DNA from: Vibrio fluvialis
Lineage (GTDB): Bacteria > Pseudomonadota > Gammaproteobacteria > Enterobacterales > Vibrionaceae
Direction: 5' to 3'
NCBI RefSeq assembly: GCF_900460245.1
Contig: NZ_UHIP01000002.1
Span: forward strand, 1,116,001-1,180,000
DNA length: 64,000 nucleotides
Shown: in pieces, positions 36,684-59,123 of the stretch
Layout: every line of letters starts with the position of its first letter
Position numbering within the stretch: the first letter of the stretch is position 1
Program-made: the position numbers and the translations under genes
Notes under the pieces: generated by a model
Told to the model about the DNA's origin: nothing
Databases searched by the model: none
What the model saw: the letters and a program-made list of their open reading frames with translations, nothing else

Positions 36684-36698
36684 AGCGACCTCCGATGG

Positions 36699-39437: not shown

Positions 39438-39447
39438 GGTGTTCTCC

Positions 39448-39977: not shown

Positions 39978-40007
39978 GGTATAATGACGTTTGGATAAGA
40001 AAGAGAC

Positions 40008-43337: not shown

Positions 43338-43720
43338 AGTGTGACCTTAAACGTGGTGTCATCGGTGAGGGTAATGATCACATCACGCCCCATCTGATTG
43401 GGTTTCGCTTCCCATACGGAAACCGTCACGGCTTTGGCGTGGCCCTCGGTGATGAGCCAGGCTAACGCTTCTTCATAAAAGCGTTTGGCCATGACGAGCG
43501 TCTGCGGGGTGAGTTTGTCCCGGCGCAGCGTCCAGTCGCGTGAGCCTACGATGGTCAGCAGTTCGTCGCTCCAGTTGCCGCCGCGTTCGTCTTCGGCCAT
43601 TCGCGCGCGGTCGTTCTGTGTCGACTCGCTGTGGTTGTAAATGCTCTGCCAGACGGCGTGTGTCATGCCTTCCTCGGAGTGCATCGGCGCCGTGACTGCG
43701 TTTAAACGGAAATAGTTCAT
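43334..43720 (-). CDS. Baseplate protein GP46 family
   Basis: A 128-aa protein with LTIVGSRDWTLRRDKLTPQT and RFYEEALAWLITEG, characteristic of phage GP46 (gp25/gpW-like sheath-initiating wedge) proteins. The gene overlaps both neighbours by 4 nt in the order gp45-46-47. Confidence 0.85.
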   Translation of the reverse strand: MNYFRLNAVTAPMHSEEGMTHAVWQSIYNHSESTQNDRARMAEDERGGNWSDELLTIVGSRDWTLRRDKLTPQTLVMAKRFYEEALAWLITEGHAKAVTVSVWEAKPNQMGRDVIITLTDDTTFKVTL

Positions 43721-45223: not shown

Positions 45224-46422
45224 TGCGGGTTCCTCACTGCAATGTCACCACGCAGAAACAGAGGGTGCTGCAACGCATTCATCGCGGTAACGATCGGTTC
45301 TGCCGTGTACTGGTCGTGCGCGATGGTCAGGGCCGGTTTGCTGCGCGGCTGCTCAATCACACGGTGCGCCGCGGTGCCTTTGATGACTTTGTCATGCTGC
45401 GTCTGAATGCCGCCTTTCAGCGCCTCCAATGCATTGAAGATGTCTAAGCTCTCAACCGTTGAGACGCTTGTCGTTTCACGCACGCGCGCATCAATCCCGT
45501 CAAGCAGCGCCACGAGGTCGCTTTGAATGATGGCTGGCTGTGTGCTCACGGCGGTGATGTCAAACTGGTCCAGCTTCTCCAGACGGGTAACATCTTGGCT
45601 GACCTTCACGGCTCCGGTCACCATCTGAATGTTGTGATGAGGGGTAACGGCGTCCTCTTTAACCTGACCCAACATCAGTTGCTGCGCGGTGCGCGCATTG
45701 TCGACGGCCTCACTGTCGGAGTCTGGCTCAGACTGAACGCCCTCGGCGACGCGATCAACGGCGGTGCTCAGCAGCGTAGCGAACTTATCCGGCGCACTGC
45801 TGATGCTGCTGATGGCACCAAACGCTTCGTTGATGGCTGAGTTGATGCTTTGCAGCTTGTCATCGGCGAGGTTCAGGCGGTGGGTGATGTCCACCAAGAC
45901 GTTGAGTGACTGAGTGAAATCGTTCTGTGTCTGGTTGATGTCGGCCACACTGAGGTTTTTCACATCACGGGCGAACGACTGCGCTGAGACACTTTCCACC
46001 GCGCTGGCCTGTTGCTTCACGCGGACGGTCGCTGATGTGTTGATGGTCGGCTGCGTGCCGGCACGGACAAAGCTCAGGCTGAGTGTGACCACGCCACGCT
46101 TGGTGCTGATGCTTTGCGAAAAGGTGTCGAATACCAGCGTTAGTTCGCCCAGCCAAGGGTGTTCCAGCTCTCCGGCAGGGGAAGACTCAAGGTTAGCAAT
46201 GAACGCGTTGGCATCGGCCAGCGAGTCGGCGCCGACAAAGACGACATCGAGTTTGATGGTGCGGGATTTACTGCCCATCACACGGATGTTGGGCAGTTCG
46301 GCGTAGGGAATTTCACTGACGTGCAGGCGTTGGCCGCCATCAATGGCCGTCGCCAGGATGTTGAGCTGATGCCCGTTCCATCGCCCGCGCTCGTACTGTC
46401 GTTCCCACATGAAAGCTCTCAC
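45220..46422 (-). CDS. DNA circularisation protein (Mu gpN-like)
   Basis: A 400-aa protein. The N-terminal WERQYERGRWNGHQLNILAT, then LKVDVVFVG-like strands and ESSPAGELEHPWLGELTLVF, define the DNA-circulation N-terminal family. The C-terminal part is helical. In Mu, gpN is a tail component between tape measure and hub. Here the tape measure gene is about 24 kb away across the lysogeny module. It heads the minus-strand operon to the tail fibre. Confidence 0.85.
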   Translation of the reverse strand: MRAFMWERQYERGRWNGHQLNILATAIDGGQRLHVSEIPYAELPNIRVMGSKSRTIKLDVVFVGADSLADANAFIANLESSPAGELEHPWLGELTLVFDTFSQSISTKRGVVTLSLSFVRAGTQPTINTSATVRVKQQASAVESVSAQSFARDVKNLSVADINQTQNDFTQSLNVLVDITHRLNLADDKLQSINSAINEAFGAISSISSAPDKFATLLSTAVDRVAEGVQSEPDSDSEAVDNARTAQQLMLGQVKEDAVTPHHNIQMVTGAVKVSQDVTRLEKLDQFDITAVSTQPAIIQSDLVALLDGIDARVRETTSVSTVESLDIFNALEALKGGIQTQHDKVIKGTAAHRVIEQPRSKPALTIAHDQYTAEPIVTAMNALQHPLFLRGDIAVRNPQ

Positions 46423-46582
46423 TTCATCTCAAATAAATCAAAGAAGGCAGCAGGCTGGAAAAATGATGGCGGGGAAGGGCGCTCAGGCCTAATTCGGACT
46501 CACCCCTCCCTCCGCACCAAAATTCAGCACTGCAATTTTGCGCAATCAGAGACGCAAAATAATTAGGTAGGGTTATTGCACC

Positions 46583-46614
46583 ACAGCCCTGATGGGAACT
46601 GAACTCAGGGCTGT
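46583..46614. terminator. Hairpin between early operon and baseplate operon
   Basis: Ten-base arms ACAGCCCTGA and TCAGGGCTGT with a 12-nt loop, followed by TTT on the + strand. The only genes entering this gap are minus-strand early genes ending at 46690, and on that strand there is no T-run, so it may be a weak terminator or an RNA structure. Confidence 0.45.
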
Positions 46615-46634
46615 TTTAGATTGGGGATTTAGAG
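46614..46634. promoter_or_regulatory. Predicted late-activator (Ogr-like) site upstream of the baseplate operon
   Basis: TTTTAGAT-TGGGG-ATTTAGAG, third copy of the palindrome with the same 5-nt spacer, 192 bp upstream of the gpN-like gene. It is the most diverged of the three. Confidence 0.58.
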
Positions 46635-46689
46635 AAGTGCCGGGATCGCAAACGTGCGTTTTTGATCGTTTTTTTTGAAAAGAAGATCT

Positions 46690-47157
46690 TTACACGATTA
46701 GGGTAGAGTAAGAAGACCTCATTTTGTCGATAAAGCTCGCTTTGAAATCCGAAAAATCTTTGTCTAAACCTATTCTCTCCGTTCTTTTGAACACTATGGG
46801 TAAGTAACTCTGAGTAACTTTGGTTACGTGGATTTTGGAGAAAGGTCTGTACTTGAGTATCTTTTCATTGAGTTGAACATGATCAATCAAGTTGAACTGA
46901 TCACCAGTAATATCAACTACATGTTCTTCTATCTCCAACCAAACGTGTGAAACCATATTCTCGCCATAACCAGTTACGCAGGTTATTTCTATGTTGTTTA
47001 GACGTTGAAAGTAGTGAAAAGCGAGCAACAGTGAGGCGAATTTACAGTTCATGATGGGAAAGGTATTAGTCAATATCGTAGAGGAATCTTTGTCACAGGA
47101 ATCCATTGCAGTACGAAGCCTAAGTGCTTCGCGTCTCAAGATTTGAATATTGACCAT
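46690..47157 (-). CDS. Small protein with a possible Cys-His-Asp (transglutaminase-like) triad
   Basis: A 155-aa protein of unknown function. FPIMNCKFASLLLAFHYFQ, SHVWLEIEEHVVDIT and GDQFN give a Cys, His, Asp order and strand pattern like small transglutaminase/papain-type enzymes. I chose ATG 47157 with GGGA upstream; the frame is open to an ATG at 47244, which would add a hydrophobic stretch (IFIHWLITQYFLLLISGL) and overlap the previous gene by 49 nt. It ends the early operon. AT-rich codons contrast with the structural genes, suggesting recent acquisition. Confidence 0.6.
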   Translation of the reverse strand: MVNIQILRREALRLRTAMDSCDKDSSTILTNTFPIMNCKFASLLLAFHYFQRLNNIEITCVTGYGENMVSHVWLEIEEHVVDITGDQFNLIDHVQLNEKILKYRPFSKIHVTKVTQSYLPIVFKRTERIGLDKDFSDFKASFIDKMRSSYSTLIV

Positions 47158-47195
47158 CGATAGTCCCGAAATGAGAAGTAAAAAATATTGGGTGA

Positions 47196-47555
47196 TTAGC
47201 CAATGGATAAAAATATAGCTCGATGTTTCTTGAGCATTGTCCATGACGAAACTAATTCATTTATATAGGAAAAGTTAGTGTCATCAAAGCAGTTGAACAC
47301 ATAAACATTTCCTGAATAGCCTGCAGATGTTTGGCTGTTAGGGAGTAAGAACGTCAGCGTTGTACCATTGGGCAATATAAGCGGGTTGCCAGACAGAGTC
47401 AGCCCGTACGAGCTCGCCAACTCAATGATACGCTCTCGAATCCTCTCGCTCTCATCTGTCGACGCAGACAAGAATATCTGATTTTCCTTCGTTTGAATCG
47501 CGTCGACTAGGGCATTTTTGCAAATGTGCAATTCGATTGAATCTATATTCATCAT
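47196..47555 (-). CDS. Terminase-ATPase-like mini protein (possible decoy)
   Basis: A 119-aa protein that aligns with the ATPase segment of the phage's own large terminase. NQIFLSAS here is NQVFLSAS there; LILPNGTTLTFL is LQLSNGATFYFL; QTSAGYSGNVYVFN is RTSQGFNGHVYFDE; and both end near a FLS/YLS strand. The acidic Walker B residues are replaced (DE to FN), and the region holding Walker A is missing, so it should not hydrolyse ATP. It overlaps the KorA-like gene upstream by 4 nt. Function unknown; interference with a terminase is an inference. Confidence 0.65.
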   Translation of the reverse strand: MMNIDSIELHICKNALVDAIQTKENQIFLSASTDESERIRERIIELASSYGLTLSGNPLILPNGTTLTFLLPNSQTSAGYSGNVYVFNCFDDTNFSYINELVSSWTMLKKHRAIFLSIG

Positions 47556-47782
47556 GACAACCTATATGCTTTGAGAAGTATCCTATCTATTTGGTCTAAT
47601 TTGCGAGCAGCCAGAGAAATGCGCTTGCTCGATACGCCCGTTCTAAGGGACGCGAGCTCATATGAATAACCAGACTCAAAGACCAGCCTCAATGCCGCTC
47701 TGGTTTGCTCTGGAATTTCGCGCATAGGAAGAACATCCAATAGTGCGTTCAGACGCTGTGATGGAATGACATTAATTTTCAT
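47552..47782 (-). CDS. KorA/TrfB-like helix-turn-helix protein
   Basis: A 76-aa protein whose C-terminal half, SGYSYELASLRTGVSSKRIS then LAARKLDQID, is a helix-turn-helix resembling the KorA/TrfB family. It is probably a small repressor or adaptor for the two genes that follow in the same coupled unit. Confidence 0.6.
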   Translation of the reverse strand: MKINVIPSQRLNALLDVLPMREIPEQTRAALRLVFESGYSYELASLRTGVSSKRISLAARKLDQIDRILLKAYRLS

Positions 47783-47800
47783 GCAGTCTAGACTTCTGGT

Positions 47801-48052
47801 TTATTGGATTTGCTCAAAGGCACTGAAGATGTCCATCTGATCCACATCTCCCTTACACAGCTCCGGCTGCAGTTCCGGGTCTGGCTTGGCGCCAGTCGGT
47901 TCAATAATGCGGTTAACCGTGGTCAGCGTGGTAAACGCTCGGCCGCAGTTTAGGTTCAGACATTGGCAATAGGCTTCGCGCGTTTCGTTACTCATCGCTT
48001 TGGACGTTGCAATACGTGCTTTGCTTCCACAAATAGGGCAGGTGATTAACAT
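47801..48052 (-). CDS. ogr: Ogr/Delta-type late transcription activator
   Basis: An 83-aa zinc protein. Cysteines at 5, 8, 31 and 36 give C-x2-C-x22-C-x4-C, exactly the Ogr/Delta spacing, with the surrounding CPICGSKA and CLNLNCGRAFTT. Ogr proteins bind palindromes upstream of P2-type late promoters and contact RNA polymerase alpha. The three TTCTAGAT-N5-ATNTAGAA sites in this prophage are its likely targets. The gene lies just after the replication gene. Confidence 0.88.
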   Translation of the reverse strand: MLITCPICGSKARIATSKAMSNETREAYCQCLNLNCGRAFTTLTTVNRIIEPTGAKPDPELQPELCKGDVDQMDIFSAFEQIQ

Positions 48053-48061
48053 GGGATCTCC

Positions 48062-50692
48062 TCACGCTAACGGCCAGTCATCTTCCAACTCAGGGAAGAA
48101 CGACAGGTCCGGTTGTTGATACTCTTCGGTTTCTGGTTGGGCTAACACTTCGTCCCAACCTTCAAAATTCATCCACGACAAATCATCGGCAGGCACGCGG
48201 CTGACTTCGACCAGCTGAGCCGGGCGTTTTTCGCCGTACTCGTCTACCTCCGCAGGGCGGATTTGGATACTTCGTTCATCATCGATGCGAATTGAACTGC
48301 CTTTTCTGAGTGCGGCCAGTGCCGCTTCATCAATATTTGGCGGTTTATTCGCCTTTCTTCGCTCTGGTGCTAACAACCTGGTGAGCTGATCGCTGACCTG
48401 ATCCTCGCGGGGCTCCGTACAGTTATTGACAGAACTCCGAGAGGCGGCGGGGCCGCCAATGACGGTCGCTGCGCTCCCTTGGGCGATCGCTTCCGCATCA
48501 TCGCTAACCTTGGGTTTCTGTTTAATCGTCCAGACTCTGAGGCGTGTTTTGATGAACACGCCTGATGCGTCAAACCCATCCAACTTGCGAACGGTTTCAC
48601 CGTGCGGAGAAGCAAACGGCAGCTCTTCATAAACGTTGGTGATCAGCAGGTCAGCGCGTTTCACGAACGGGCCACCCTGACCCATGATGTAATCACGCCA
48701 CTGGCCACGGTCGGCGGCTTTCATCACTTCCGTGACGGTGCCGTTTTCGTGTTCCAGATCGGCCTGATAAACCTGCGTGAGCAGCACAAACAGATACTTG
48801 CTGTCGAACTTCTTATGGCGACGAATCAGCTCTGCCGGAATAGGCGGGCCGATCAGCTTGCGGCCTTCGCGAATGTCCAACTCTTCATAAATGGTCAGCA
48901 GCTCTTCATAGTTCAGTTGAGTGAGGTACTGGTTAAAGCTGGCTTTGTCGTTGTTGGCAAAGCGGCGCAGCTCGCGGTAAGTCGTGACCGGAGCGCCACC
49001 AAAAAACTGAAACTGGCGGATAGCCCAGCGGCTTTTCCAGGCACTCACATTCTTGGCCATGTCTTTCACGGGCTTACCTGTTTCGTCGGAAATCTCATCG
49101 TCCATGGCAAAGCCGTCGATGTTCTTGGAAATGTATTTGGCGATGTAGCCGGTTGCCGTGCCTTTGGCCGGATCGATGTAACCAAAGTCGCAGCGCGGTT
49201 TGTAATTGAACGGCCCGTGAAAGGCCTGCTTCTTCTCGGCGCGTTTCGGGTTGCGGTCGAACTGCGGATACAGCTCTTCTTTGTCTTCTTCGACGGCGTA
49301 GGAAATAAACACGTCACGCACTTGCGCGACATCTTCCGGCTTCACCCAGATCAGCAAATGCCAGTGCGGCGTGCCATCGTGATGCGGCTCGGCAACGCGA
49401 ACCCCGAACCAGCGAATTTCGTCACGGCCCAGCTTGGCGCGAATACGCTGCCACACATTGTTAAGGTAGGCTTGCGTATCGCGCGGGCTGGCGCCGTTCC
49501 AGTGGTCGATAAAGCCGCCTTTCTTGTAGCTGTTGTGGTACTTGGACGGCGAAGTGAGCGTGAGAAACAAACCTTGCAGCTCAAGCTCATTGCCGATGTC
49601 TTCGCAGCCACTGCAGCGCACCATCAGCTCATGGCGGCGGATCGCCGGATTAGACAGGCTCTTTTTCGCCATGTCCCACAAATCGGCTTCTTCGCCCGTA
49701 ATCTCATCGATCAGTTTTCTCTGCTTAATATATTCATAGTTGGCTTTCTGCTGCTCCTGATGCTCACGGACACAATCCCAAGAGGCATAAGGCGAGGCTT
49801 TGTAGCTCACTTGCCCCATGGCGATCGCCAGATGTTCGCGCATGATTTTGCGAATGTGCACCAGTCGGCCGCGCCACCATTTTTCATCGAGCATTCTTGA
49901 GATGTCGTTCAGGGCCGTCAGTTCGGTTTGCTTCTTGCGCTTGCGGGGCGCTTTGATGCCGAACTCATTCACGAAAGCTGCCAGCTTGTGATAGGTGTTC
50001 ACCACCGCAATCTCGCCGATTTTTGATTCAGAGGCTTTGACCTCGCGCTTCGCCAGATCTGCTTTCACTTCTTTGATGGCAGAAGCCGCAAAGCGTTGGT
50101 GACGGGCAGAGGCGATTTGCGACAGTTTGAATGCCATGTCTCTGAGTTCGTCGGGTTCGAGTTCGGCAACGCTGCGGTTCTTCTCTGGCTTGGTATGTTT
50201 TTCGGCTTGGTCGAAGTCAAAAGAGAGCTGAGGACGCTGAAAGTCTTCAGGCAGGCTGTGCTCTGTAAAGTACACGGAGGCGAATGCGTTATCGCCGCTT
50301 TCGAATTCTTTAGAGAACATCGCCACTTTTTGTGTGGTTGGCAGTTTGCTGTATTTTTCCAAGACCTTTTGCGCGCGTTCTGTTGCGGGTGCCATACGCT
50401 CACGCAGGTAAATGTTGGCCTCTTTACGGCCGAGTTTTTCAAACACGCTGATGTAGCGCGTGACGAAGTATTTGGTTAGGTAATCGGGCAAGTCTTGGAT
50501 GCGCGATTGCGCCCAGGCAAAGTCGTCCGGGTTGGCTTCAAACAATTTACGTTCAAGCACACTCAGGCTTTCTGGCTGAATCACTTCATTGAATCGGCGA
50601 TCACCAAAGCAGCCCGCTTCAACTTCCGTTAAAGGGGCTTGCCATGGGAATTCGTAAAGGTCGATTTCAGCGGGTACTTTTAGGTTTTCCAA
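48062..50692 (-). CDS. Rolling-circle replication endonuclease (P2 gpA-like)
   Basis: An 876-aa HUH-family nickase that starts phage replication. The HUH motif is TPHWHLLIWV at about residue 445. The paired active-site tyrosines are in GYIAKYISKN at about 514 and 518 (Y-x3-Y), as in P2 gpA. CxxC pairs (CSGCEDIG) lie upstream. It is longer than P2 gpA (761 aa); the extra length includes an unconserved C-terminal tail from about residue 740. In P2 the origin lies inside this gene. Confidence 0.93.
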   Translation of the reverse strand: MENLKVPAEIDLYEFPWQAPLTEVEAGCFGDRRFNEVIQPESLSVLERKLFEANPDDFAWAQSRIQDLPDYLTKYFVTRYISVFEKLGRKEANIYLRERMAPATERAQKVLEKYSKLPTTQKVAMFSKEFESGDNAFASVYFTEHSLPEDFQRPQLSFDFDQAEKHTKPEKNRSVAELEPDELRDMAFKLSQIASARHQRFAASAIKEVKADLAKREVKASESKIGEIAVVNTYHKLAAFVNEFGIKAPRKRKKQTELTALNDISRMLDEKWWRGRLVHIRKIMREHLAIAMGQVSYKASPYASWDCVREHQEQQKANYEYIKQRKLIDEITGEEADLWDMAKKSLSNPAIRRHELMVRCSGCEDIGNELELQGLFLTLTSPSKYHNSYKKGGFIDHWNGASPRDTQAYLNNVWQRIRAKLGRDEIRWFGVRVAEPHHDGTPHWHLLIWVKPEDVAQVRDVFISYAVEEDKEELYPQFDRNPKRAEKKQAFHGPFNYKPRCDFGYIDPAKGTATGYIAKYISKNIDGFAMDDEISDETGKPVKDMAKNVSAWKSRWAIRQFQFFGGAPVTTYRELRRFANNDKASFNQYLTQLNYEELLTIYEELDIREGRKLIGPPIPAELIRRHKKFDSKYLFVLLTQVYQADLEHENGTVTEVMKAADRGQWRDYIMGQGGPFVKRADLLITNVYEELPFASPHGETVRKLDGFDASGVFIKTRLRVWTIKQKPKVSDDAEAIAQGSAATVIGGPAASRSSVNNCTEPREDQVSDQLTRLLAPERRKANKPPNIDEAALAALRKGSSIRIDDERSIQIRPAEVDEYGEKRPAQLVEVSRVPADDLSWMNFEGWDEVLAQPETEEYQQPDLSFFPELEDDWPLA

Positions 50693-50735
50693 TGTGTTAA
50701 GCTCAATTTCGCACTAATCAACAAAGAGTTGGCTT

Positions 50736-51044
50736 ATGAAAACAAAACTATTTAAACCTGAACTAAAGCTAGATTTTGACGATTCAATCGTTTCGTTTGT
50801 CGAAGGTTATGAATCGAATGAACTGTTGCCTGAGTTAAAAGTTGCTTTGCTTTCGGATAAAGCTAAGAGCCAATACCGCTCGATTACAGTTTTCGGACAG
50901 GAAGCATTAGATGACCTGGACGAAGAACTGGAGGAGTGGGGACTCGTTAACCTTTTAGCCGGACATCCTCCTGTTTCGCCATACGTTGCAATCTACGGTT
51001 ATGAGCCTGAGATTGAGTCGTTCGATGAAGACGAAATAATCTAG
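50736..51044 (+). CDS. Small highly acidic protein on the opposite strand
   Basis: A 102-aa protein with 24 Asp/Glu against 8 Lys/Arg, ending IESFDEDEII. I do not recognise it. It reads plus while every neighbour reads minus. It starts 43 bases from the replication gene start (divergent) and overlaps the convergent gene below by 98 bases. The strong negative charge resembles DNA-mimic anti-restriction or anti-repressor proteins, but nothing beyond composition supports that. Confidence 0.55.
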   Translation: MKTKLFKPELKLDFDDSIVSFVEGYESNELLPELKVALLSDKAKSQYRSITVFGQEALDDLDEELEEWGLVNLLAGHPPVSPYVAIYGYEPEIESFDEDEII

Positions 51045-51237
51045 TTGCATCAGACAGAGAGCCATTAGATAAAGCAGTGGCTCTCAAACATCCCAAATAG
51101 CGCCATTCAGTCAGCGGTCTGTTGGGGAATTCGCCCGCAGCCAACTCTCTAGCAGTGTCCAAGCTAGAAAACTTGCTTTTACAGATGCTTTCAAAATGTT
51201 GAATCAAACGTTCCAATGTGATGATTGGTTCACTCAT
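50947..51237 (-). CDS. Hypothetical early phage protein
   Basis: A 96-aa protein, MSEPIITLERLIQHFESICK onward, with a helical N-terminal half and an Arg-rich C-terminal end. Its start overlaps the previous stop (ATGA), which supports it as part of the early operon. The last third overlaps the acidic plus-strand gene, so one of the two may be shorter than drawn. Confidence 0.5.
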   Translation of the reverse strand: MSEPIITLERLIQHFESICKSKFSSLDTARELAAGEFPNRPLTEWRYLGCLRATALSNGSLSDATRLFRLHRTTQSQAHNRRLQRMAKQEDVRLKG

Positions 51238-51470
51238 ACTTCCTCCAACTCTTGCGTAGTAACTAACAGATAACCGCCTTTACCTCGTCCTTTGCTGATT
51301 ATTCCCTTCTCGCGTGGATGCATCACACTGCAATCAAGATCACGGCAGGCTTGGTTCATGGCTTCTTGCATCGAATCGAAATCGCCAATCAGAATGTTGG
51401 CGACTTCCTGAGTTTGTTCGTGGCGGATCACTCCGCCATCGGAACACAGCATTACTGCGGCGTATTGCAT
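51234..51470 (-). CDS. Hypothetical early phage protein
   Basis: A 78-aa protein (MQYAAVMLCSDGGVIRHEQT onward) with no recognised family. It overlaps neighbours on both sides (19 and 4 nt) in a compact early operon. The C-terminal GKGGYLLVTTQELEEV looks like a beta strand and helix. Confidence 0.6.
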   Translation of the reverse strand: MQYAAVMLCSDGGVIRHEQTQEVANILIGDFDSMQEAMNQACRDLDCSVMHPREKGIISKGRGKGGYLLVTTQELEEV

Positions 51471-51919
51471 GGCTGACTCTCCGCGAAGGTATTCAGAAAC
51501 TGGTTAGCCTCTTCAATAAACACTCGGCCGCCCTCTACTGTCATTGCCGCATCTGACGTGGAATGGCCGGAAGAACGTGCGATGCCATAACCCGCTTCAA
51601 TGCAGTCACAAGTTTCTTCCAAGCGATCACGCAGGTACTCAATCAACTTTTGGGCTTTGTTGTGAGTGGTATTCTTTAGCGAGAGAACACACCATCCTTC
51701 AGCCAAACCATACTGATCACCGTGAAGTACATGGCTGATTTGAGTATTCATTTCTTGCCCGGTGTAATGGCCGCTCTCATCGATTTCGCGAAGGTTTAAA
51801 CAGTCACCAATTTGATAATTTCTGTCGTTGAATCGAACTTCATGCGTTTTGCGTCCGGCCAGCACTTCCGTGAAATTCTCGGCGCTAATTTTGAGTTCGT
51901 GAATTGTCAGCGTGCTCAT
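51452..51919 (-). CDS. DUF3850 / ASCH-like domain protein
   Basis: A 155-aa protein. The N-terminal TIHELKISAENFTEVLAGRK and THEVRFNDRNYQIGDCLNLR match the DUF3850 group of the ASCH/PUA-like superfamily, thought to bind RNA or modified bases. The C-terminal half is a helical segment of unknown role. It lies in the early operon, coupled at both ends. Confidence 0.78.
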   Translation of the reverse strand: MSTLTIHELKISAENFTEVLAGRKTHEVRFNDRNYQIGDCLNLREIDESGHYTGQEMNTQISHVLHGDQYGLAEGWCVLSLKNTTHNKAQKLIEYLRDRLEETCDCIEAGYGIARSSGHSTSDAAMTVEGGRVFIEEANQFLNTFAESQPCNTPQ

Positions 51920-52212
51920 GCTTCTTCCCCCTTCTCCAACTCATCGCGGCGCGCAGCGATGCGCTCAATCAAGTCATCTTCGATGTCCAGCAGGTCTTTC
52001 AGGGCTTGTTTGCTATCGAGCAGCACAATGCTGTGGGCGTGGTCGGTTGTGGTGGCGGAGAAGATCACCACGTTCAGCATCTTCATGCTTGAGGAATATT
52101 CGATACGCACGCTCATCACATCGGCGCTGTCGATGGCCAGCTCATACAGGCTGGTGATAGTGGCGAGAATCGCGCGTTCAAACGCGGCTTTGGTAACTGG
52201 GTCATTCATCAT
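51916..52212 (-). CDS. Hypothetical early phage protein
   Basis: A 98-aa protein, MMNDPVTKAAFERAILATIT onward, alpha/beta with a charged end (ERIAARRDELEKGEEA). I placed the start at ATG 52212 because AGGAG lies 8-12 nt upstream; the longer frame to 52272 has no ribosome site. Confidence 0.62.
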   Translation of the reverse strand: MMNDPVTKAAFERAILATITSLYELAIDSADVMSVRIEYSSSMKMLNVVIFSATTTDHAHSIVLLDSKQALKDLLDIEDDLIERIAARRDELEKGEEA

Positions 52213-52284
52213 CTTTGCTCCTACGCTGAGACGAAAAAGGCCCCCATTCCGAGAGGAATACCACGGGGGCAAAGGTTGGCTAGG

Positions 52285-52617
52285 TTAATGGGTGTTGCTG
52301 AACTGGTAGTGCTTGAGGCGGCGAACATCGCCGACCTTGCTGTCGAACGTGACCGTCAGGTTTTTCAGGTACTGCATTCCGGTGCGGATTTTTTGCAGTT
52401 CCAGGTCATCGAACGATTCGAATTCTCGGTTGTAATCGCGCGCGGGCAGGCCGCCGGCGATCAGCACCAAGCCACGGCTTTTCTCTGGCAGTTCGTTGAA
52501 CATCTTCTTCAACTGGCAGCGGGTGGCGGCGCCGTTAAACAGCGATTTGCACGCGGCGATGCTCTCTTGCGCTGGCGGCGTGTGTTGGGTGTGTGCGTTT
52601 CTGGCTAGCTGATTCAT
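52285..52617 (-). CDS. Hypothetical early phage protein
   Basis: A 110-aa protein with ACKSLFNGAATRCQLKKMFN and EFESFDDLELQKIRTGMQYL. AAGGAGC lies upstream of ATG 52617. I do not recognise a family; comparable genes occur between CII-like and replication genes in P2-like phages. Confidence 0.65.
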   Translation of the reverse strand: MNQLARNAHTQHTPPAQESIAACKSLFNGAATRCQLKKMFNELPEKSRGLVLIAGGLPARDYNREFESFDDLELQKIRTGMQYLKNLTVTFDSKVGDVRRLKHYQFSNTH

Positions 52618-52626
52618 CTTGGCTCC

Positions 52627-53166
52627 TTAGGACAGGCCCGGAATTGGCGCGCCTTGGGTGATAAAATCCACGCTCATCGCAAAGAACGGCGTCGCCCCAG
52701 AGGTGCGGTTTTCAAGATCAGAAATTAAAAGCATCAGGTTGCCGATGCTGGCCTGTGCCTTAGAGATAATTTTGTGTCGGGTTGTGCGGGGTAGGCGGGT
52801 GTCGCCGCCGTGGTCTAACGCCATGCGCGACAGGTCGCCCGACAGCATCGAATGTTCCAGCACCCGCTTGAGGAAGGTTTCGGCTTTCTCTTCTTGTGGC
52901 AGTTGTGCGGTCACCACACCAAGGCCAAGCAAAAGAGAATTGATGATGGTGTAGTCGCCACTGGCTTTGGTGATAGCAACCAGCTCGGCGCACGTCAGAA
53001 CATGTGGCTGCTCTGGGTTGAGCTTATTGCGCAGCACCGATGCATCTAAGCCAACGGCGGCAGCAATAGCCGACACCTTGTTGGCCGCCCGGAACGCGCA
53101 GCACGCTTCATCAAATGCCTTTTGTTTGCCCTCAAGGAAAACGTACATTGAAGTGTTCATGTCCAT
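52627..53166 (-). CDS. Phage regulatory protein CII family
   Basis: A 179-aa protein of the CII-type regulators of P2-like and related phages: FDEACCAFRAANKVSAIAAA and LRNKLNPEQPHVLTCAELVA show a DNA-binding helix region. The C-terminus (FITQGAPIPGLS) is also typical. It lies just after the Cox-like gene in the lytic operon and is preceded by an AAGGTGAG ribosome site. Confidence 0.85.
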   Translation of the reverse strand: MDMNTSMYVFLEGKQKAFDEACCAFRAANKVSAIAAAVGLDASVLRNKLNPEQPHVLTCAELVAITKASGDYTIINSLLLGLGVVTAQLPQEEKAETFLKRVLEHSMLSGDLSRMALDHGGDTRLPRTTRHKIISKAQASIGNLMLLISDLENRTSGATPFFAMSVDFITQGAPIPGLS

Positions 53167-53223
53167 ATTTGATACTCACCTTGTCGCAAGTGAAATGAGC
53201 TCACAGCCGCAATGGCTGCTCAC

Positions 53224-53682
53224 TTAAAACGAATGATAAAAGTGGTCGTTTTCAGGCTTTTCAGAATCTTCAATGGCGTGTTGCCACAGCGCGCCCATGT
53301 TGACGTAGTGCTTGCCCTTGGCGCCATCGCGCTCAATCACAGGCAGCTTTCCCTCGCGAATCATGTTGCGAATCGAGTTTTCAGACACACCCCAACGGCG
53401 GGCCAGTTCACAGGTAGGGAGGATCGGGGAATCGGGTTGAATTGAAACGTGCATATTTAGCTTCTCCAATAGGTCAGGTTGGTCTTTAAACTCTTTACAC
53501 AAACGCATGCGTGAAAGGGTGACCATATTGACGAAGCGCTTCTTCTCGCAGCGTGTCGCGGCCTTCATGGGCAGCTTTCCAGCCTCAATCAGTTGCTCCG
53601 ACTCAACCAAATCAATATGTTGACGTCGCGCATACTCTTCGATTGGCAGGTACGGCATATCTAGTTTAATCAGCGGGGTCAT
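53224..53682 (-). CDS. Cox/excisionase-like regulator with two MerR-type DNA-binding segments
   Basis: A 152-aa protein. The first half has LPIEEYARRQHIDLVESEQL, then IEAGKLPM; the second has LPTCELARRWGVSENSIRNM, then IREGKLPV. These are two copies of the winged-helix excisionase (HTH_17-like) pattern. It is the first gene of the lytic operon facing the repressor, the place of Cox/Apl, which excises the prophage and blocks repressor transcription. Start ATG 53682 has GGAAG upstream. Confidence 0.82.
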   Translation of the reverse strand: MTPLIKLDMPYLPIEEYARRQHIDLVESEQLIEAGKLPMKAATRCEKKRFVNMVTLSRMRLCKEFKDQPDLLEKLNMHVSIQPDSPILPTCELARRWGVSENSIRNMIREGKLPVIERDGAKGKHYVNMGALWQHAIEDSEKPENDHFYHSF

Positions 53683-53829
53683 GGTATCTTCCATACATAA
53701 CTGTGCATAAATGCTCACGTAGATGCCTTCAAAACTTCATCGTGTGCAGTTGTGCTTACTTGTGTTTGGTTAATTTTGCTCAATTAAATGATCAATTAAG
53801 GTATAGATCAAGGGCTAAATAAGGTACTT
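53683..53829. promoter_or_regulatory. Divergent repressor-cox switch region
   Basis: About 150 bases between the divergent repressor and Cox-like genes. It contains the direct repeat TCAATTAA at 53780-53787 and 53792-53799 (12-nt period) and related blocks TAACTGTGCATAA and CAGTTGTGCTTAC on either side of 53730. These are candidate operators for the repressor or Cox. Confidence 0.55.
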
Positions 53830-54555
53830 ATGCGCGAATGGTATACCAGTAATGAGCTAGTTGAGCTCGACGGTACGCCTAATACCCTAGAGGGTATTAG
53901 CCAAAAATCTAAAAGAAACAAATGGTTAAGAAGAAAGGCGTCAGGGCAGGGACGGGCGTTTGAATACCATATCTCTAATTTCCATGCTGACGTAAAAAAG
54001 CAGTTAATTGAGAGATACATCACGGACCCAGACGAAGCAAAAGCGCTGATGGCACTGGAAGCACCTACAAAAGAGGATGCTCCAGAACCAAGTAATGTTT
54101 CTAAAATCGTGCCACTGGCGGAAGTCAGAGACTGGTGCGAATTGCCCGTGTTTGACGTTCACGCAGCAGCAGGGGCGGGCTCACTGGTGCACAGCGAGTA
54201 CCAGATAGACAAGCTCATCATTCCCAAAAGCCTGCTGGCTGAGTTTGGCCTTGCGCCGAACTGCGCAGCCATCATCTACGTTGACGGCAACTCAATGGAA
54301 CCCACCCTCAGCCACAAAGACAGGCTGCTGGTTGATACCCGCGAACTACAACACCCGGTCACGGATGGGGTATACGTGATTCGCATCGACGATGCGGTTT
54401 ACGTAAAACGTTTGAAGTGGAACATTCCGAAAGGGATTTACCAGGTGATTTCAGACAACCCGACCTACGAGTCATTCGAGATCAACCACAAGAACGGGCG
54501 CAACTTTAAGATTATCGGCAAAGCCATCGCGCCAGTGTTTAAGAAGATTTTTTAA
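53830..54555 (+). CDS. Phage repressor with Mu-type DNA-binding domain and S24 peptidase domain
   Basis: A 241-aa repressor maintaining lysogeny. The N-terminus (MREWYTSNELVELDGTPNTL then RNKWLRRKASG) is a Mu-repressor/transposase-type winged helix. The C-terminus is a LexA/S24 self-cleaving domain: an Ala-Gly site in HAAAGAGSLV, nucleophile Ser in DGNSMEPTL, and Lys in YVKRLKW. DNA damage via RecA should trigger cleavage and induction. Its 3' end is duplicated in the remnant prophage at 20211-20380. Confidence 0.92.
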   Translation: MREWYTSNELVELDGTPNTLEGISQKSKRNKWLRRKASGQGRAFEYHISNFHADVKKQLIERYITDPDEAKALMALEAPTKEDAPEPSNVSKIVPLAEVRDWCELPVFDVHAAAGAGSLVHSEYQIDKLIIPKSLLAEFGLAPNCAAIIYVDGNSMEPTLSHKDRLLVDTRELQHPVTDGVYVIRIDDAVYVKRLKWNIPKGIYQVISDNPTYESFEINHKNGRNFKIIGKAIAPVFKKIF

Positions 54556-54560
54556 AAAAG

Positions 54561-54586
54561 AAGCCACCTTGATAGGTGGCTTTTTT
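54561..54586 (+). terminator. Terminator after phage repressor
   Basis: Stem AAGCCACC / GGTGGCTT with loop TTGATA and a run of T's, 6 nt after the repressor stop. Cassette-array sequence starts about 12 nt further on. Confidence 0.88.
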
Positions 54587-54597
54587 GATGGGGTGGG

Positions 54598-54619
54598 TTT
54601 GACTGTTTGTTATATTGGT
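54598..54619 (-). repeat. Truncated attC start at the array/phage junction
   Basis: On the minus strand, right after the last cassette gene, TATAACAAACAGTC begins like an attC and then runs directly into phage sequence (CCCACCCCATC). The remnant prophage has the same arrangement at 20421-20442. The rest of the site is missing, so this end is probably locked. Confidence 0.55.
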
Positions 54620-55012
54620 TTAGCCACCATAATACTGTTTACAGGATGGACATTTATGATGACCAAAAGTACTGAATGTCCCTGATACTTTGCTTAACGT
54701 GACTTGTTTATTTTTAGTTTCGTAACAAGCCGAACAGAAAGGACCATCGTTATTTGCACCATAGTACGCAAAATCTCTGAACTCTAACTGACTTAAATTA
54801 TTACCCTGGGAGTTTTTAAGTTCGTTAACTTCAAGTTTTAGCGTCGAGTTTTGTTCCATGACATCTGCAAGTGCTAATTTTGTATCTGCCAGCTCCAAGT
54901 TCAAATCTGCCAACAAATTCTTAAATTCTGCATCTTCGATATTTTTACTGATTTCACGTAAACGTTTTGCCAGATTGATAGCCTGACCGATTGAACCTAA
55001 TACATCACTCAT
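54620..55012 (-). CDS. Integron-cassette gene: coiled-coil protein with zinc ribbon
   Basis: A 130-aa protein. Residues about 10-75 are a helical coiled coil (LADLNLELADTKLALADVME). The C-terminal part has two CxxC pairs (FCSACYETK and HKCPSCKQYYGG), a zinc ribbon. It is the fourth and last cassette of the array. Function unknown; RNA-, DNA- or ubiquitin-like binding are all possible for such ribbons. Confidence 0.72.
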   Translation of the reverse strand: MSDVLGSIGQAINLAKRLREISKNIEDAEFKNLLADLNLELADTKLALADVMEQNSTLKLEVNELKNSQGNNLSQLEFRDFAYYGANNDGPFCSACYETKNKQVTLSKVSGTFSTFGHHKCPSCKQYYGG

Positions 55013-55036
55013 TTAAAGCTCCAAACTCAATTGCCA

Positions 55037-55161
55037 ATATAACGCTCAATTAGGGTGTGAGGCACGTAATACCGATGCTGCGGCATACCACCTTAAACAC
55101 TAAACGCAACGCATAGTAAAAATTCCACGCGTTGCGAATCACTCTTGGACAGATTGTTAGA
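55037..55161 (-). repeat. attC site (Vibrio type) after the membrane coiled-coil cassette
   Basis: About 125 bp on the minus strand, from TCTAACAATCTGTCCAAGAG to CACCCTAATTGAGCGTTATAT. It includes ATTCGCAACGCGTGG and ACTATGCGTTGCG blocks, as in Vibrio superintegron repeats. Confidence 0.85.
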
Positions 55162-55162
55162 A

Positions 55163-55750
55163 TTATCTTTCACCGTTATATGACACTTCAGACTTGTCGA
55201 TACCAATGTCTTTGCGCATTGCGTTGGTTAAATTGAGAGCCTTAGATCTAATAACTTCCCAACTCACATATTTACCATCAAATACAACGGCTAATAACTG
55301 ATCTATGAACACATCATTTGCATCCATCACCTCTTGCGGCGCTATCATTGCTAGATACCCATAAATCTTGAGGCGCTCTGCCTCGAATTGCTCTCTTTCT
55401 TGTGCTGTTAGCTGCTGCTTGTTTCTAAGAACGATCATTTCCACTTTAGCCAGCATTGTAGCCACCAAGTCAATTGTAGCTCTATAGATCAACAATTTAT
55501 CATTGTGCTCTCTGAGTTGGGTTTGCTTATAGACTTCAATCTCACTATTGAGTTTAGCTAAATTTTGCTGGCTTTCCTGATGTAACCCAGTTCTCAGCTT
55601 CTCCAGCTCTCGATCATGTTCGGCTTTTTCCTTTACCATTAGCCGGTTTGCCCAAATTTTACCTAAGTAGTTTGCCAACCCAAGAATAATGGCACCACTT
55701 CCGCCAAGAGCAGCAATGATAGTTGCCCCAATTTTTAGATATTCGTCCAT
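55163..55750 (-). CDS. Integron-cassette gene: membrane-anchored coiled-coil protein
   Basis: A 195-aa protein with one N-terminal membrane segment (IGATIIAALGGSGAIILGLANYL, about residues 7-29), then a long charged coiled coil (ELEKLRTGLHQESQQNLAKL) and a helical C-terminal domain (YGYLAMIAPQEVMDANDVFI). Similar single-TM coiled-coil proteins are common in Vibrio integron cassettes, by recollection. Function unknown; the topology (anchor plus cytoplasmic sensor) is seen in phage-exclusion proteins. Confidence 0.7.
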   Translation of the reverse strand: MDEYLKIGATIIAALGGSGAIILGLANYLGKIWANRLMVKEKAEHDRELEKLRTGLHQESQQNLAKLNSEIEVYKQTQLREHNDKLLIYRATIDLVATMLAKVEMIVLRNKQQLTAQEREQFEAERLKIYGYLAMIAPQEVMDANDVFIDQLLAVVFDGKYVSWEVIRSKALNLTNAMRKDIGIDKSEVSYNGER

Positions 55751-55764
55751 AGTTATCCGATAAT

Positions 55765-55855
55765 TTCTAACGCAGCATTAAGGTGTGAGCGGCATACTTG
55801 AGCGAAGCGAAACTGCCAAGCGTTGCGAATCACTCTTAAATGCTTTGTTATAAAT
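55765..55855 (-). repeat. attC site (Vibrio type) after the nuclease-like cassette
   Basis: About 91 bp on the minus strand, starting TTATAACAAAGCATTTAAGAG at the cassette stop and ending CACACCTTAATGCTGCGTTAGAA. Ends are complementary; the inner loop is shorter than in its neighbours. Confidence 0.83.
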
Positions 55856-56606
55856 ACTTGTGATTCGTTCCTGACCCTAGAGATATAGTATTTTTCTCGT
55901 TAGTCACAGAATAATTTCTGTCATTTAGTATATGAGATTCATAGTCAAAAATACGCTTCTGAATAAAGTCATTTACATTTTCCTTATAAATATCCAGACG
56001 CGCCCTAAATTCATCTCGGCCTTGCTGGGGTGTGAAATGCGTATTCTGGCTCGGCAACCTAAATACTGGAATATCATCAGCCTGTATCTGGGAATCCCTG
56101 AACTTATCCTTACGCACATTTGTTTCCTGCAGATGATAAGGACCATCATATTCTAAAGCAGCTTTCGCTATGATGTTCTTACTGTCCCCAGACATAAAGT
56201 ATAGTTCTAGTAGAAGGTCTATTTCATATGACTTACGTGTATCGCCTAGTAAATTCTTGTTCCACTTACTTTGCGGGGTTGCACTAATAAAGTATGTATT
56301 CCCTAGTCTAGTTTCGTATGAATTTAGTTGTGATACGAGAGTAAAACTAAGAGGATGCTCGACTAAAAGCGGCACATTAAATGATCTTTTATTACTTAAT
56401 GAACTAAGAATTTCACCGATAAACTTTACTTCTTCTGTGGTAACGGCTCTCTTTTGTTCCAAGCAGAGTAGCAATATTGTTGCTCTGTAACCAACCATAG
56501 GGCTTAAGAATTGATAAAGGTTACATACTTTCTTATGATTAAAATCAATTAAAACCTCTGACATCAAACAAATTTGATTGTGTCTCTCTATATTTTCTTT
56601 ACTCAT
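55848..56606 (-). CDS. Integron-cassette gene: PD-(D/E)XK nuclease-like protein
   Basis: A 252-aa protein. Residues about 125-195 read YEIDLLLELYFM, then AALEYDGPYHL, then KDKFRDSQIQADDIPVFRL, which matches the pattern of restriction-type folds (acidic residue, E-Y-D-G-x-x-H, then K/R-D). The N-terminal half is helical and unrecognised. Start ATG 56606 is chosen over an upstream frame (to 56699) that runs into the attC. It may be a single-gene nuclease effector; its target is unknown. Confidence 0.68.
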   Translation of the reverse strand: MSKENIERHNQICLMSEVLIDFNHKKVCNLYQFLSPMVGYRATILLLCLEQKRAVTTEEVKFIGEILSSLSNKRSFNVPLLVEHPLSFTLVSQLNSYETRLGNTYFISATPQSKWNKNLLGDTRKSYEIDLLLELYFMSGDSKNIIAKAALEYDGPYHLQETNVRKDKFRDSQIQADDIPVFRLPSQNTHFTPQQGRDEFRARLDIYKENVNDFIQKRIFDYESHILNDRNYSVTNEKNTISLGSGTNHKYL

Positions 56607-56649
56607 AAAAATTCTATTAGTTCCAAGGTATACACCAATAATCACGTAT

Positions 56650-56775
56650 TTATAACGCCCTGTTAAGGTGTGAGCAACGCAATACAAAAGCTGCCACATA
56701 CCACCTTAAACACTAGTCGCAACGCATAGTGAAAATGCCACACGTTGCGAATCACTCTTAAACAGTTTGTTAAAC
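56650..56775 (-). repeat. attC site (Vibrio type) after the AbiTii-like cassette
   Basis: About 126 bp on the minus strand, from GTTTAACAAACTGTTTAAGAG to CACACCTTAACAGGGCGTTATAA. Contains GATTCGCAACGTGTGGCATT and TGCGTTGC blocks of the superintegron consensus. The cassette stop TAA lies inside the left end. Confidence 0.87.
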
Positions 56776-57708
56776 GTTTTTGTTCTCCTCGAGGTGCAGC
56801 ACCTCTCCCAGAAACAGGTAAGTATTAAGGAAAAGTGCTTTTGCTTCTTCTGGGGTAACATCCTTGTGAACCCCCGTTGAGACTCTATCGAACAAATTAG
56901 CTAAGTTTTGGCGAAAACGTTGTTTACGCGATTTACTTTCACACCTTTGGTGAATGTAAGCATTGATTCTATTTTGATGCTTACTTGCGTCTAGTTTTAA
57001 CTCATTGCCACCAATGTTCATAGTTTCATCAGAAGCCGGAAAAATTGAATCAGCGAAAGATTCGATTACGCGTCGACAAGTGGTAAGTGCATGACTAATC
57101 GCCTCGGCATTACCGGAACTAAGTCTTTCCATAACAGTTGGAATCTGTTCAAGTACATCACCACAGTTTTCTGAAATTAAGTGGTCAACCTCTCGTTTGT
57201 AGCCCTCAAAGATTGATTCAGATAAATTATCAAATACTTTCTCGTAGTATACGTCGGTTATAAATTTGTGTAGTAATGCTATGACTTTGCTGCGAATTCC
57301 ACTGAACTTTGAAATATTATTTGTTGTCTCATTCATTGCTCTAGTTGCATGGTGAACAGCGTAATTGTGGTCACCTGAAGAGTCCGGTGTTCTCATGACT
57401 GATAACTTAGCTTTATCGGCTTCAATGCGAGCTTCAATCTGAGCAAGGGGCATCCAATATCCCTTATTTTCATCACGATTTGTCCAACGCCCAGTTAATG
57501 TCATGTATTTAAGTGAGATGGAATTATCTGAATAGAAGCCACCCAGCTCAAAGCGCAACCATTCTTTAACTTCTTCAGCGCCAACGATTCTTGCTAACCG
57601 AGACGCTTTTAGGATAATTTTTTCGACGGAAGAACGCCCAAGCTCTAAGTCATCCAACAGGTCTTGAACTAACTCTAATGTATGTTCACTCTTACTTACA
57701 ACCACCAT
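56770..57708 (-). CDS. Integron-cassette gene: AbiTii-domain abortive infection protein
   Basis: A 312-aa protein. The N-terminal region (LELVQDLLDDLELGRSSVEK, then KASRLARIVGAEEVKEWLR and FELGGF) matches the AbiTii domain of abortive-infection proteins. The middle is helical (FSGIRSKVIALLHKFITDV), and the C-terminal part (SHALTTCRRVIESFADSIFP) looks like a HEPN-like or AbiV-type helical bundle. It is the first cassette of the array, nearest the integrase-side promoter region. Role as a phage defence gene is inferred from the domain. Confidence 0.75.
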   Translation of the reverse strand: MVVVSKSEHTLELVQDLLDDLELGRSSVEKIILKASRLARIVGAEEVKEWLRFELGGFYSDNSISLKYMTLTGRWTNRDENKGYWMPLAQIEARIEADKAKLSVMRTPDSSGDHNYAVHHATRAMNETTNNISKFSGIRSKVIALLHKFITDVYYEKVFDNLSESIFEGYKREVDHLISENCGDVLEQIPTVMERLSSGNAEAISHALTTCRRVIESFADSIFPASDETMNIGGNELKLDASKHQNRINAYIHQRCESKSRKQRFRQNLANLFDRVSTGVHKDVTPEEAKALFLNTYLFLGEVLHLEENKNV

Positions 57709-57729
57709 AACTCCTTCAAAACGTTTAAC

Positions 57730-58014
57730 AGTCCCTTTTAACTAGACCTAATAGGTATAAGTTCAGAATAAAGTACAGACAGAATCTATCTAAAACACCA
57801 TCCCAAAGGGGACATATGCTTTGGTGGCTTTATGTACTCACAACTGACAAATGAAACGCATCCACAGTATCAAACGACTGTGTCTTTTGGTGTGATCGGT
57901 TTGGGTTTTATCACCACAATTACGCATCAATGTGCATTTCTGTGTGAATCAAATACTGTGTTTATGTACAGTTGTGATTTATCATTTCTGCTCATGTTGT
58001 TGAGTGAGCAGATT
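57730..58014. promoter_or_regulatory. Integrase leader and cargo promoter region
   Basis: 285 bases without a gene of their own, conserved with 21980-22241 in the remnant prophage. It starts with CTTTTAACTAGAC at the cargo junction, then a degenerate copy of the inverted repeat (57748-57790) with a weak minus-strand promoter candidate CTGTCT-17-TATACC (57754-57782). Beyond it are repeated ACTGTG / CACAGT elements (57865-57985) that may be integrase arm sites. The open frame upstream of 58015 shows no protein-like conservation. Confidence 0.55.
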
Positions 58015-58983
58015 ATGAGCATTAAGAAAGAGGGTAAAAAGTGGTTGGTTGACCTGCGGCCGCAAGGCCGGAACGGTAAGCGCTATCGCCGCCAGTTCGA
58101 TACCAAGTTCGAAGCTACCCAATATGAAAAGCATGTGCTGGCGACGGCCCATGATAAAGAGTGGCTAGAAAAGCCCGCCGATCGCCGCTCTCTGAGTGAG
58201 TTGATTGAACTGTGGTGGAAGTACGAAGGGCAATCGAAGAAAACCGCCGAAGCCTACCTTAAGGAAGTGAAATTGGTCGACAAGGAACTCGGCTTTCCTA
58301 AAGCGCACCAGATCACCCACAAACTGCTCGCAGATTACCGAATGGCTCAGCTCAACAAGGGCAGGGCGATGACTACCTTTAACCGCAAGATGAACTGTTT
58401 GAGCAATGTGTTTACCGCGCTCATCGCGGTGAAGGAGTTCCACAACCCGCATCCGGTTTCTGGCTTTAAACTGAAAGTCCCCAAAACACGCGAAATGGCG
58501 TTTCTCTCGGTTGATGAAATGAATCACTTACTCAGCGTGCTTTCTGGGGATAGCTACAAGGTTGCCAAGCTCTGTTTGGCCACAGGTGCACGATGGGGTG
58601 AAGCAGAAGAGCTAAAGGGCAGCACGGTCAGCCATTGCAAAGTGACCTTTCTCGATACCAAGAACGGGAAAGACCGCACGGTGCCGATCAGCCAGGAACT
58701 GCAAGATGAAATCGTCACGGGCAAGTCTGGCCGATTGTTCAAAGATTGTTATGCCGAGTTCTATGTGCAGCTCAAACAGTGCAATTTCGATTTGCCCAAA
58801 GGGCAGGCCGCCCACGTCCTTCGCCACACGTTCGCCAGCCACTTTATGATGAATGGCGGCAACATCCTCACGCTGCAAAAAATACTCGGCCACGCGACGA
58901 TTCAGCAAACGATGACCTACGCGCATTTCGCGCCGGATTACCTGCAAGACGCAGTCAGATTCAACCCCTTAAACAGCCTTTAA
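58015..58983 (+). CDS. int: Tyrosine-type phage integrase (P2-like)
   Basis: A 322-aa site-specific recombinase. Catalytic elements: Arg in TGARWGEAEEL, Lys region KNGKDRTVPIS, HVLRHTFASHF (His-x-x-Arg), LGHATIQQTMTYAHF (His and nucleophile Tyr). The N-terminal KKEGKKWLVDLRPQGRNGKR is an arm-binding type domain. ATG 58015 gives the standard start; the frame is open upstream without similarity. It ends 98 nt before the right attachment core and acts at the yeeX terminator. Confidence 0.94.
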   Translation: MSIKKEGKKWLVDLRPQGRNGKRYRRQFDTKFEATQYEKHVLATAHDKEWLEKPADRRSLSELIELWWKYEGQSKKTAEAYLKEVKLVDKELGFPKAHQITHKLLADYRMAQLNKGRAMTTFNRKMNCLSNVFTALIAVKEFHNPHPVSGFKLKVPKTREMAFLSVDEMNHLLSVLSGDSYKVAKLCLATGARWGEAEELKGSTVSHCKVTFLDTKNGKDRTVPISQELQDEIVTGKSGRLFKDCYAEFYVQLKQCNFDLPKGQAAHVLRHTFASHFMMNGGNILTLQKILGHATIQQTMTYAHFAPDYLQDAVRFNPLNSL

Positions 58984-59080
58984 AGTGGCCGGAAAATGAT
59001 CCACAAATTGACCACATAGACTATACATCGATACATATAAGCGTGATTGAGTATGTCTGGAGGCCTTGAAAATACTAGAC

Positions 59081-59123
59081 TTTGCTAGGTATGGCGGGAA
59101 TAAAAAACCCGCCATTGGGCGGG
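59081..59123. repeat. Prophage attachment site, right copy (attR)
   Basis: Identical over 43 bases to 22323-22365. It overlaps the yeeX terminator hairpin, 22 nt from the end of yeeX. Insertion therefore duplicates the hairpin and does not harm the host gene. Confidence 0.9.

Follow-up and report, generated by a model that had tools for sequence, protein, structure and literature searches.

How does a phage that has no integron integrase come to carry a run of integron cassettes? The question is raised by a 64,000-nucleotide stretch of Vibrio fluvialis DNA (assembly GCF_900460245.1, contig NZ_UHIP01000002.1, positions 1,116,001 to 1,180,000 of the forward strand; hereafter, the window), in which a prophage of the P2 type holds an array of gene cassettes, with their attC recombination sites, between its repressor and integrase genes. 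A sequence-only reading of the window had explained the array by the capture of a run of cassettes from a chromosomal integron. The comparison of related loci leads us to propose, with a probability of roughly four in five, that the prophage belongs to a lineage of K139-like Vibrio phages without an integron integrase of their own, which have fixed docking sites and are loaded by the integron integrase (IntI) of the host.

According to this proposal, docking site 1 is located between repressor and integrase (position 57729), docking site 2, a copy of attI, follows the portal gene, and some relatives possess a third site. In the lysogen, IntI from the chromosomal integron of the host would act in trans and insert cassettes, as folded single-stranded attC, at the G/TT of a docking site (the slash marks the joint), the newest cassette coming to lie nearest the site. 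The phage would transport these cassettes, some of which appear defence-like, to other hosts, and the SOS response would switch on both intI and the phage integrase. Following decay of the prophage, the cassettes could remain in the chromosome. The cassettes, their joints, the differing content at a single base, the attI copies, the matching integron cassettes, the remnants and the LexA-like boxes can be read directly from the sequences; the action of IntI in trans, the succession of events, the SOS coupling, the transfer and any benefit are inferred.

Cassette arrays at docking site 1

The prophage is 36.8 kb long and is delimited by att cores at 22323-22365 and 59081-59123. It encodes replication protein A, CII- and Cox-like proteins, portal, terminase, baseplate hub, tail fibre and an integrase, and its DNA resembles that of K139, Kappa and other P2-like Vibrio phages, with about 73% identity between K139 or Kappa and the replication and early-gene region (across 39% of a 5.7-kb query). 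On account of this gene set, the att cores and the DNA similarity, we regard the element as a temperate, K139-like phage of the P2 type. Unlike the replication and early-gene region, the DNA of the array has no match in the K139 and Kappa records. The array lies within the att cores and, as the sequence-only reading had it, between repressor and integrase (Table 1).

Table 1. Features of the prophage, its docking sites and the neighbouring remnant (positions in the window; by eye, identified by visual inspection)
Feature	Position	Strand	Remarks
Remnant of an older phage of the same kind	20215..22322		outside attL; no R1 attC
Intact-looking P2-like (K139-like) prophage	22323..59123		between identical 43-bp att cores
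Docking site 2, copy of host attI region	33783..33935	+	88% identity over 153 bp
Joint of site 2, G/TTAGGC	33929-33935	+	by eye
First cassette gene of site 2	34003..34725	+	function not assigned
attC of site 2, cassette 1	34720..34846	+	R1 132.3 bits
Second cassette gene of site 2	34912..35832	+	weakly Peptidase_C92-like, 23.8 bits, below cut-off 27
Short attC-like site of another type	35834..35923	+	hairpin GCCTAAC..GTTAGGC, z -4.2; no R1 match
Phage repressor, CI-like, Peptidase_S24	53830..54555	+	domain match
Truncated half attC, distal end of array 1	54598..54615	-	by eye
Cassette gene, 130 aa	54620..55012	-	no Pfam or PADLOC match
attC 3	55037-55162	-	R1 87.7 bits, E 1.3e-16
Cassette gene, 195 aa	55163..55750	-	
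attC 2 (short)	55765-55853	-	R1 63.3 bits, E 3.8e-11
Cassette gene, 254 aa	55848..56612	-	
attC 1	56650-56775	-	R1 117.6 bits, E 2.5e-23
First cassette gene of site 1, AbiTii-like, 312 aa	56770..57708	-	
Joint of site 1, G/TTAAAC, phage to first cassette	57723..57729	-	
Conserved non-coding phage flank of site 1	57729..58008		
Phage integrase, P2-type tyrosine recombinase	58009..58983	+	not an integron integrase

The attC sites were searched with R1, a covariance model made for this analysis and trained on 10 chromosomal attCs from the host, two being truncated ahead of R', and on none from the window; the search covered 25 sources. R1 matched all three complete Vibrio-type attCs that had been proposed, within a base or two of the proposed limits and with scores far above chance. 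All three are on the minus strand with genes between them, so that the array represents an attC cluster without an integrase (CALIN). As a control, the 41 more distant members of a set of 54 viral loci, all of which have a related portal gene, were scanned, and no R1 attC was found in them at E <= 0.01, which rules out chance attCs. The truncated fourth attC at the phage junction and the start of the array at GTTAAAC are likewise present as claimed. A cruder scan for attC arms, in itself a weak test, recovered one of the three site-1 attCs and both attCs of site 2, plus one place that is not an attC, and gave 0, 0 and 2 matches on three shuffled sequences. Folding of the bottom strand of five attCs yielded z-scores of -0.25 to -1.62 in four cases and -4.23 in the fifth, and folding energy is therefore not counted as evidence for those four.

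Searches with the integrase, with a motif of 19 bases adjacent to the joint and with part of the integrase gene uncovered related loci, which provided ten copies of site 1, namely, the window array (A), the remnant in the window (B), V. furnissii CIP 102972 (C) and a remnant in the same strain (D), the viral contigs L078, L171, L172, L174 and L178 (E to I), and the V. fluvialis record L179 (J). These ten copies have ten different first cassettes, and all switch from phage to unrelated sequence at one base, G/TTA on the cassette strand. On the phage side, the 30 bases adjoining the joint have a mean pairwise identity of 0.86; on the cassette side, the value for bases 4-40 is 0.29. R1 attCs were detected in eight of the ten arrays, the other two being B and H (242 bp available for the latter). 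Copies C, D, F, G and I have a common segment by the repressor (387-778 bp pairwise), with 914-1219 bp in common at this side among D, F and I, while their ends towards the site differ; this indicates that the arrays grow at the site, with a polarity as in attI insertion. In cargo-free Vibrio loci matching both genes, the gap between repressor and integrase, as judged from alignment ends, is at most about 41 bp in 15 out of 15 (20 loci were fetched, one of which had cargo and four no repressor match).

The presence of ten different first cassettes at one base led us to reject a single capture of a cassette run, and points to repeated loading instead. The comparison of related prophages, which the sequence-only reading had proposed as a check, thus revealed the different cargo that it anticipated, and no empty site 1 among 227 Vibrio genomes.

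Another route to such diversity would be one old chance insertion by IntI at a site of the attG type, followed by the swapping of whole cargo blocks via the conserved flanks, with no dedicated docking. Insertion of cassettes by IntI at attG sites in genomes is described (Loot 2024, as cited in the available text of PMC12901181 and PMC12444791); the cassette is placed outside attI in these cases, and site 1 may be such a site. The conserved flanks make block exchange possible, no empty site 1 is known, and the distal edges of the arrays are worn. However, block exchange is expected to keep the first cassette or to break at random, whereas the ten arrays have a new first cassette at the same base. 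Furthermore, attG insertions in E. coli are described as spread over many places (PMC12444791, available text), whereas site 1 is re-used and conserved, and sites 2 and 3 are copies of attI, also with differing sequences behind them. The joint of site 1 would fit an attG insertion by IntI, while the scatter described for attG does not, and we consider a single insertion with block exchange unlikely.

attI copies at docking sites 2 and 3

Site 2, which had escaped the sequence-only reading, is situated after the portal gene and consists of an attI followed by two cassettes (33783-35923). It is recognised as an attI by its homology to the attI of the host integron and by its G/TT joint. Portal identity is at least 97% in 13 of the 54 portal loci and 75-84% in the other 41. 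Copies of attI (BLAST, E <= 1e-5) occur in 8 of the 13 closest loci vs none of the 41 others, and R1 attCs at E <= 0.01 in 7 of the 13 vs, again, none of the 41. Five loci display five different sequences behind site 2. Further downstream, BLAST revealed a third attI-like site in L209, L211, L212, L215 and L219, and a pattern match indicated one in L213. The portal of L208 is identical to that of the window, and this contig may derive from the same strain. Four other Vibrio intI loci matched neither the site-1 nor the site-2 query, and are thus little informative on attI likeness.

Loose motif matches in L225 and L251, two of the 54 portal loci, lacked BLAST support and were dropped. The attI motif is also present in the viral contigs L202, L203, L204 and L207, where no such portal or terminase was seen in the sequence examined, and the attC of L203 scores 100 bits; these are possibly other phages with the same habit. 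In the prophage, C4 antisense RNA and isrK RNA families are found near the attI-bearing site (36735-36819 and 36883-36962, respectively, minus strand), and an Rfam scan at gathering scores revealed nothing besides these two.

Probable source of the cassettes and of the integrase

The sequence-only reading had assigned the cassettes to Vibrio integrons, and had asked whether the same genes are restricted to this phage family. Two of the three site-1 genes tested, those of the AbiTii and 195-aa proteins, occur between attCs in integrons outside this phage, in line with that assignment. The AbiTii cassette shares 96.6% DNA identity over 959 bp with an integron cassette of genome G025, where attCs flank the gene, and the homology begins exactly at the G of GTTAAAC. 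The G025 copy is broken near its end by a stretch that, by eye, resembles a transposase gene. The cassette of the 195-aa protein shares 91.9% DNA identity over 741 bp with a cassette of genome G040 that lies between attCs, 1.1 kb from intI; this match extends into the attCs, which resemble one another in any case. A homolog of the 195-aa protein with 32% identity is also found in an attC array (L189), as are homologs of the 306-aa product of the second gene at site 2 (58% and 32% identity, in L191 and L192). In addition, a stretch of L215 is 96% identical over 424 bp to a chromosomal cassette of the window's host, and a stretch of the V. furnissii phage is 91% identical over 559 bp to another stretch of the host. 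Out of 50,697 phage records, two have a DNA match to array 1, namely, MT188663.1 (vB_Vipa36), in an unannotated stretch, and MK672802.1 (Va_90-11-286_p16), discussed in the available text of PMC9892861; these matches cover 7-10% of the array-1 query. Among the chromosomal attCs of the host, L067:15588-15713 and L069:1251-1379 share an unrelated terminal sequence, GGGCTACATGGACTCCCTC, perhaps the trace of an insertion targeting attC ends.

With regard to the integrase, the host genome contains a single match above the TIGR02249 cut-off of 265, the integron integrase at C2:138016-138951 (389 bits), about 1 Mb from the prophage. The only match to this family in the window is the phage integrase, in two pieces of 39 and 31 bits; the earlier statement that no integron integrase accompanies the array was therefore correct. 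The prophage possesses attI and cassettes without intI, and hence is not a complete integron. A tblastn search with the host IntI found no match in the sequence examined of the 54 portal loci and 8 attI loci.

The distance of 1 Mb also bears on a further explanation, according to which the prophage is lodged within or next to the superintegron of the host, or the region is misassembled, and the cassettes are chromosomal. V. anguillarum prophages excising at integron attC sites are described (PMC9892861, available text). With the host intI so remote, the arrays within the att cores, and the same structure in independent contigs and in V. furnissii, we reject this explanation, which seems to us scarcely credible.

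A motif resembling a LexA box, CTGTGTTTATGTACAG, is present at 57956-57971, in the site-1 flank upstream of the phage integrase. The pattern CTGT-N8-ACAG, which we take to be the LexA box consensus, was found in 8 of the 9 flanks of site 1 that were examined; it also precedes the host intI and is present in 3 out of 4 further Vibrio intI loci. It occurs three times in the window vs 0.9 expected, one occurrence, at 40584, being away from these sites. These LexA-box-like motifs suggest that SOS may drive both intI and the phage integrase.

Outside attL, the window contains the remnant of an earlier, similar phage, which the sequence-only reading had not reported. It comprises the end of a repressor gene, two cargo genes (20440-21297 and 21337-21945, minus strand), one of which codes for a DUF6236 protein, the same joint at 21979, and the start of an integrase gene. 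A 364-bp portion of its cargo next to the joint is identical in the viral contig L176. Similar remnants exist in V. furnissii, with four R1 attCs, and in the V. fluvialis record L179, with a single one. Since these remnants keep cargo, the cargo can outlast the phage. The record L179 is that of plasmid pIDH5335-3 and shares 98.8% DNA identity with the window over 4898 bp. Despite its label, it contains luxP, luxQ and further genes that are collinear with those of the window, and may be a chromosomal piece.

Taken further, these observations would describe a mobile integron in phage form, with one docking site of its own and others copied from attI, loaded by any host IntI, with loading coupled to SOS-driven excision, an inter-species trade of anti-phage cassettes, and chromosomal islands left after decay. 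For this wider scheme as a whole, we would put the odds slightly below even.

Several observations weigh against fixed docking sites loaded by the host IntI. At site 1, the joint base is T instead of G in copies I and J, the flank has no match to the host attI, which site 2 does match, and array B has no R1 attC. The distal array edges are worn: A and B finish in a half attC, C and G in a truncated one (R1 38.9 and 33.7 bits), and D, F and I in a gene lacking an attC, and a G/TT, looked for at the distal edge, was not seen. As for the empty site missing among the 227 genomes, the flank was present in two of them, and all copies examined were loaded. A scan of 57650-58100 for a sigma-70-like promoter at site 1 found none, and the earlier claim that the cassettes are lysogen-expressed was thus not substantiated. 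Of the 13 near relatives, 5 have no attI match in the sequence examined. Behind site 2, R1 attCs are present in two of the five loci (L208 and L213) and a weak one (24.6 bits) in a third, and none was detected in L209 and L216. In addition, the GTT is no longer present in the attI at the third site of V. furnissii G056, and in the 2.1 kb of L188 examined, which encode a homolog of the 195-aa protein with 37% identity, there is no attC. Finally, array E contains two plus-strand open reading frames (ORFs) of 369 and 511 aa besides its cassettes, and repressor and integrase lie apart without an attC at E <= 1 in L080 (166 bp), L160 (556 bp), L088 (6.3 kb) and L081 (9.0 kb), although in L088 and L081 the repressor match is weak; other relatives may therefore have other cargo there.

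P2-type phages carry variable cargo, and the mixture in array E and the long gaps in L081 and L088 would agree with ordinary phage cargo (morons or defence genes), shuffled by recombination, whether homologous or illegitimate, in which attCs would be passengers. The ten arrays all have the same joint, and the homology to an integron cassette starts exactly there; both findings argue against such an origin, which we strongly disfavour as very improbable.

Relation to known systems and nature of the cargo

Clusters of attCs without an integrase are known in phages, and attCs of phages are recognised by IntI1 (Qi et al. 2023, PMC9892861). The available text of that study also reports a CALIN starting at a Shewanella-type attI, AAACGCGCATGCGCACTAATAAAATGTT, in a cryptic prophage, a sequence nearly equal to the core of site 2 in the window. 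The arrays described here are likewise integrase-less attC clusters in phages. However, each phage in that text is a separate case, whereas in the present case a single lineage uses one base repeatedly, each member having different cassettes there, and possesses two or three docking sites as well as chromosomal remnants. Sedentary chromosomal integrons of Vibrio are regarded as reservoirs of anti-phage genes (Darracq 2025, Getz 2025 and Kieffer 2025, as cited in the available text of PMC12444791 and PMC12409362). The present arrays resemble them in their Vibrio-type attCs, their cassettes with defence-like genes and their attI joint, but lack an integrase gene and are borne by a temperate phage. 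Among the matches listed in our literature search, which covered titles and the beginnings of abstracts, with subscription journals mostly outside, no description of a phage lineage with a re-used docking site was found; phage-borne cassettes are already known, and a lineage re-using fixed docking sites is apparently new.

How cassettes pass from the chromosomal integron of one species to that of another has long been an open question. A phage whose docking sites are fixed, with the same backbone receiving different cassettes at one base, would represent a concrete and testable vehicle. It would also bear genes with a possible blocking effect on competing phages; once expressed, these could confer immunity and so be of benefit. 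Prophage decay would, in addition, provide a route by which cassette islands without an integrase arise in chromosomes.

Concerning the cargo of array 1, the AbiTii-type label of the first protein was upheld by matches to Pfam PF18864 (63.5 bits, cut-off 27.6) and to PADLOC AbiTii (72.8 bits); no sequence relative was found in the PDB at E <= 0.01. The 254-aa protein had been labelled a PD-(D/E)XK-like nuclease, which we could not confirm, as it has no Pfam or PADLOC match and a poor structure model (pLDDT 60). Comparison with the PDB found no relative of it by sequence, and none by Foldseek with this model at E <= 0.001. It has 5 homologs in a large protein set, and, among 148 Vibrio genomes, its gene has a match solely in the window's own genome. 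The 130-aa protein has 127 homologs, several of the best from Vibrio.

Across the arrays, the cargo includes AbiTii, a protein with an AbiJ N-terminal domain and a TIR-effector match, FRG (PDC-S15), DUF4917 (PDC-S21), trypsin-like (PDC-S45), DUF3800 (PDC-M04A) and nuclease-like (PDC-S02) proteins, and a relative of PD-T4-10_B. PADLOC matches at E <= 0.001 were obtained for 9 of 20 chosen proteins, several of them to candidate families; these proteins were a selection from the ORFs, several of them chosen after their Pfam matches were known, and the figure is therefore no fair rate of defence genes. Three of the four site-1 proteins of the window have no PADLOC match. Judging from such domain matches, some of the cassettes appear to be defence-like. 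An EACC1-like gene (weak, 23.3 bits, just below the cut-off of 23.6) was noticed at L044:7362-7655 (minus strand); this gene or its DNA, missing in the window phage, is present at the repressor end of five arrays (L044, L171, L172, L178 and L181).

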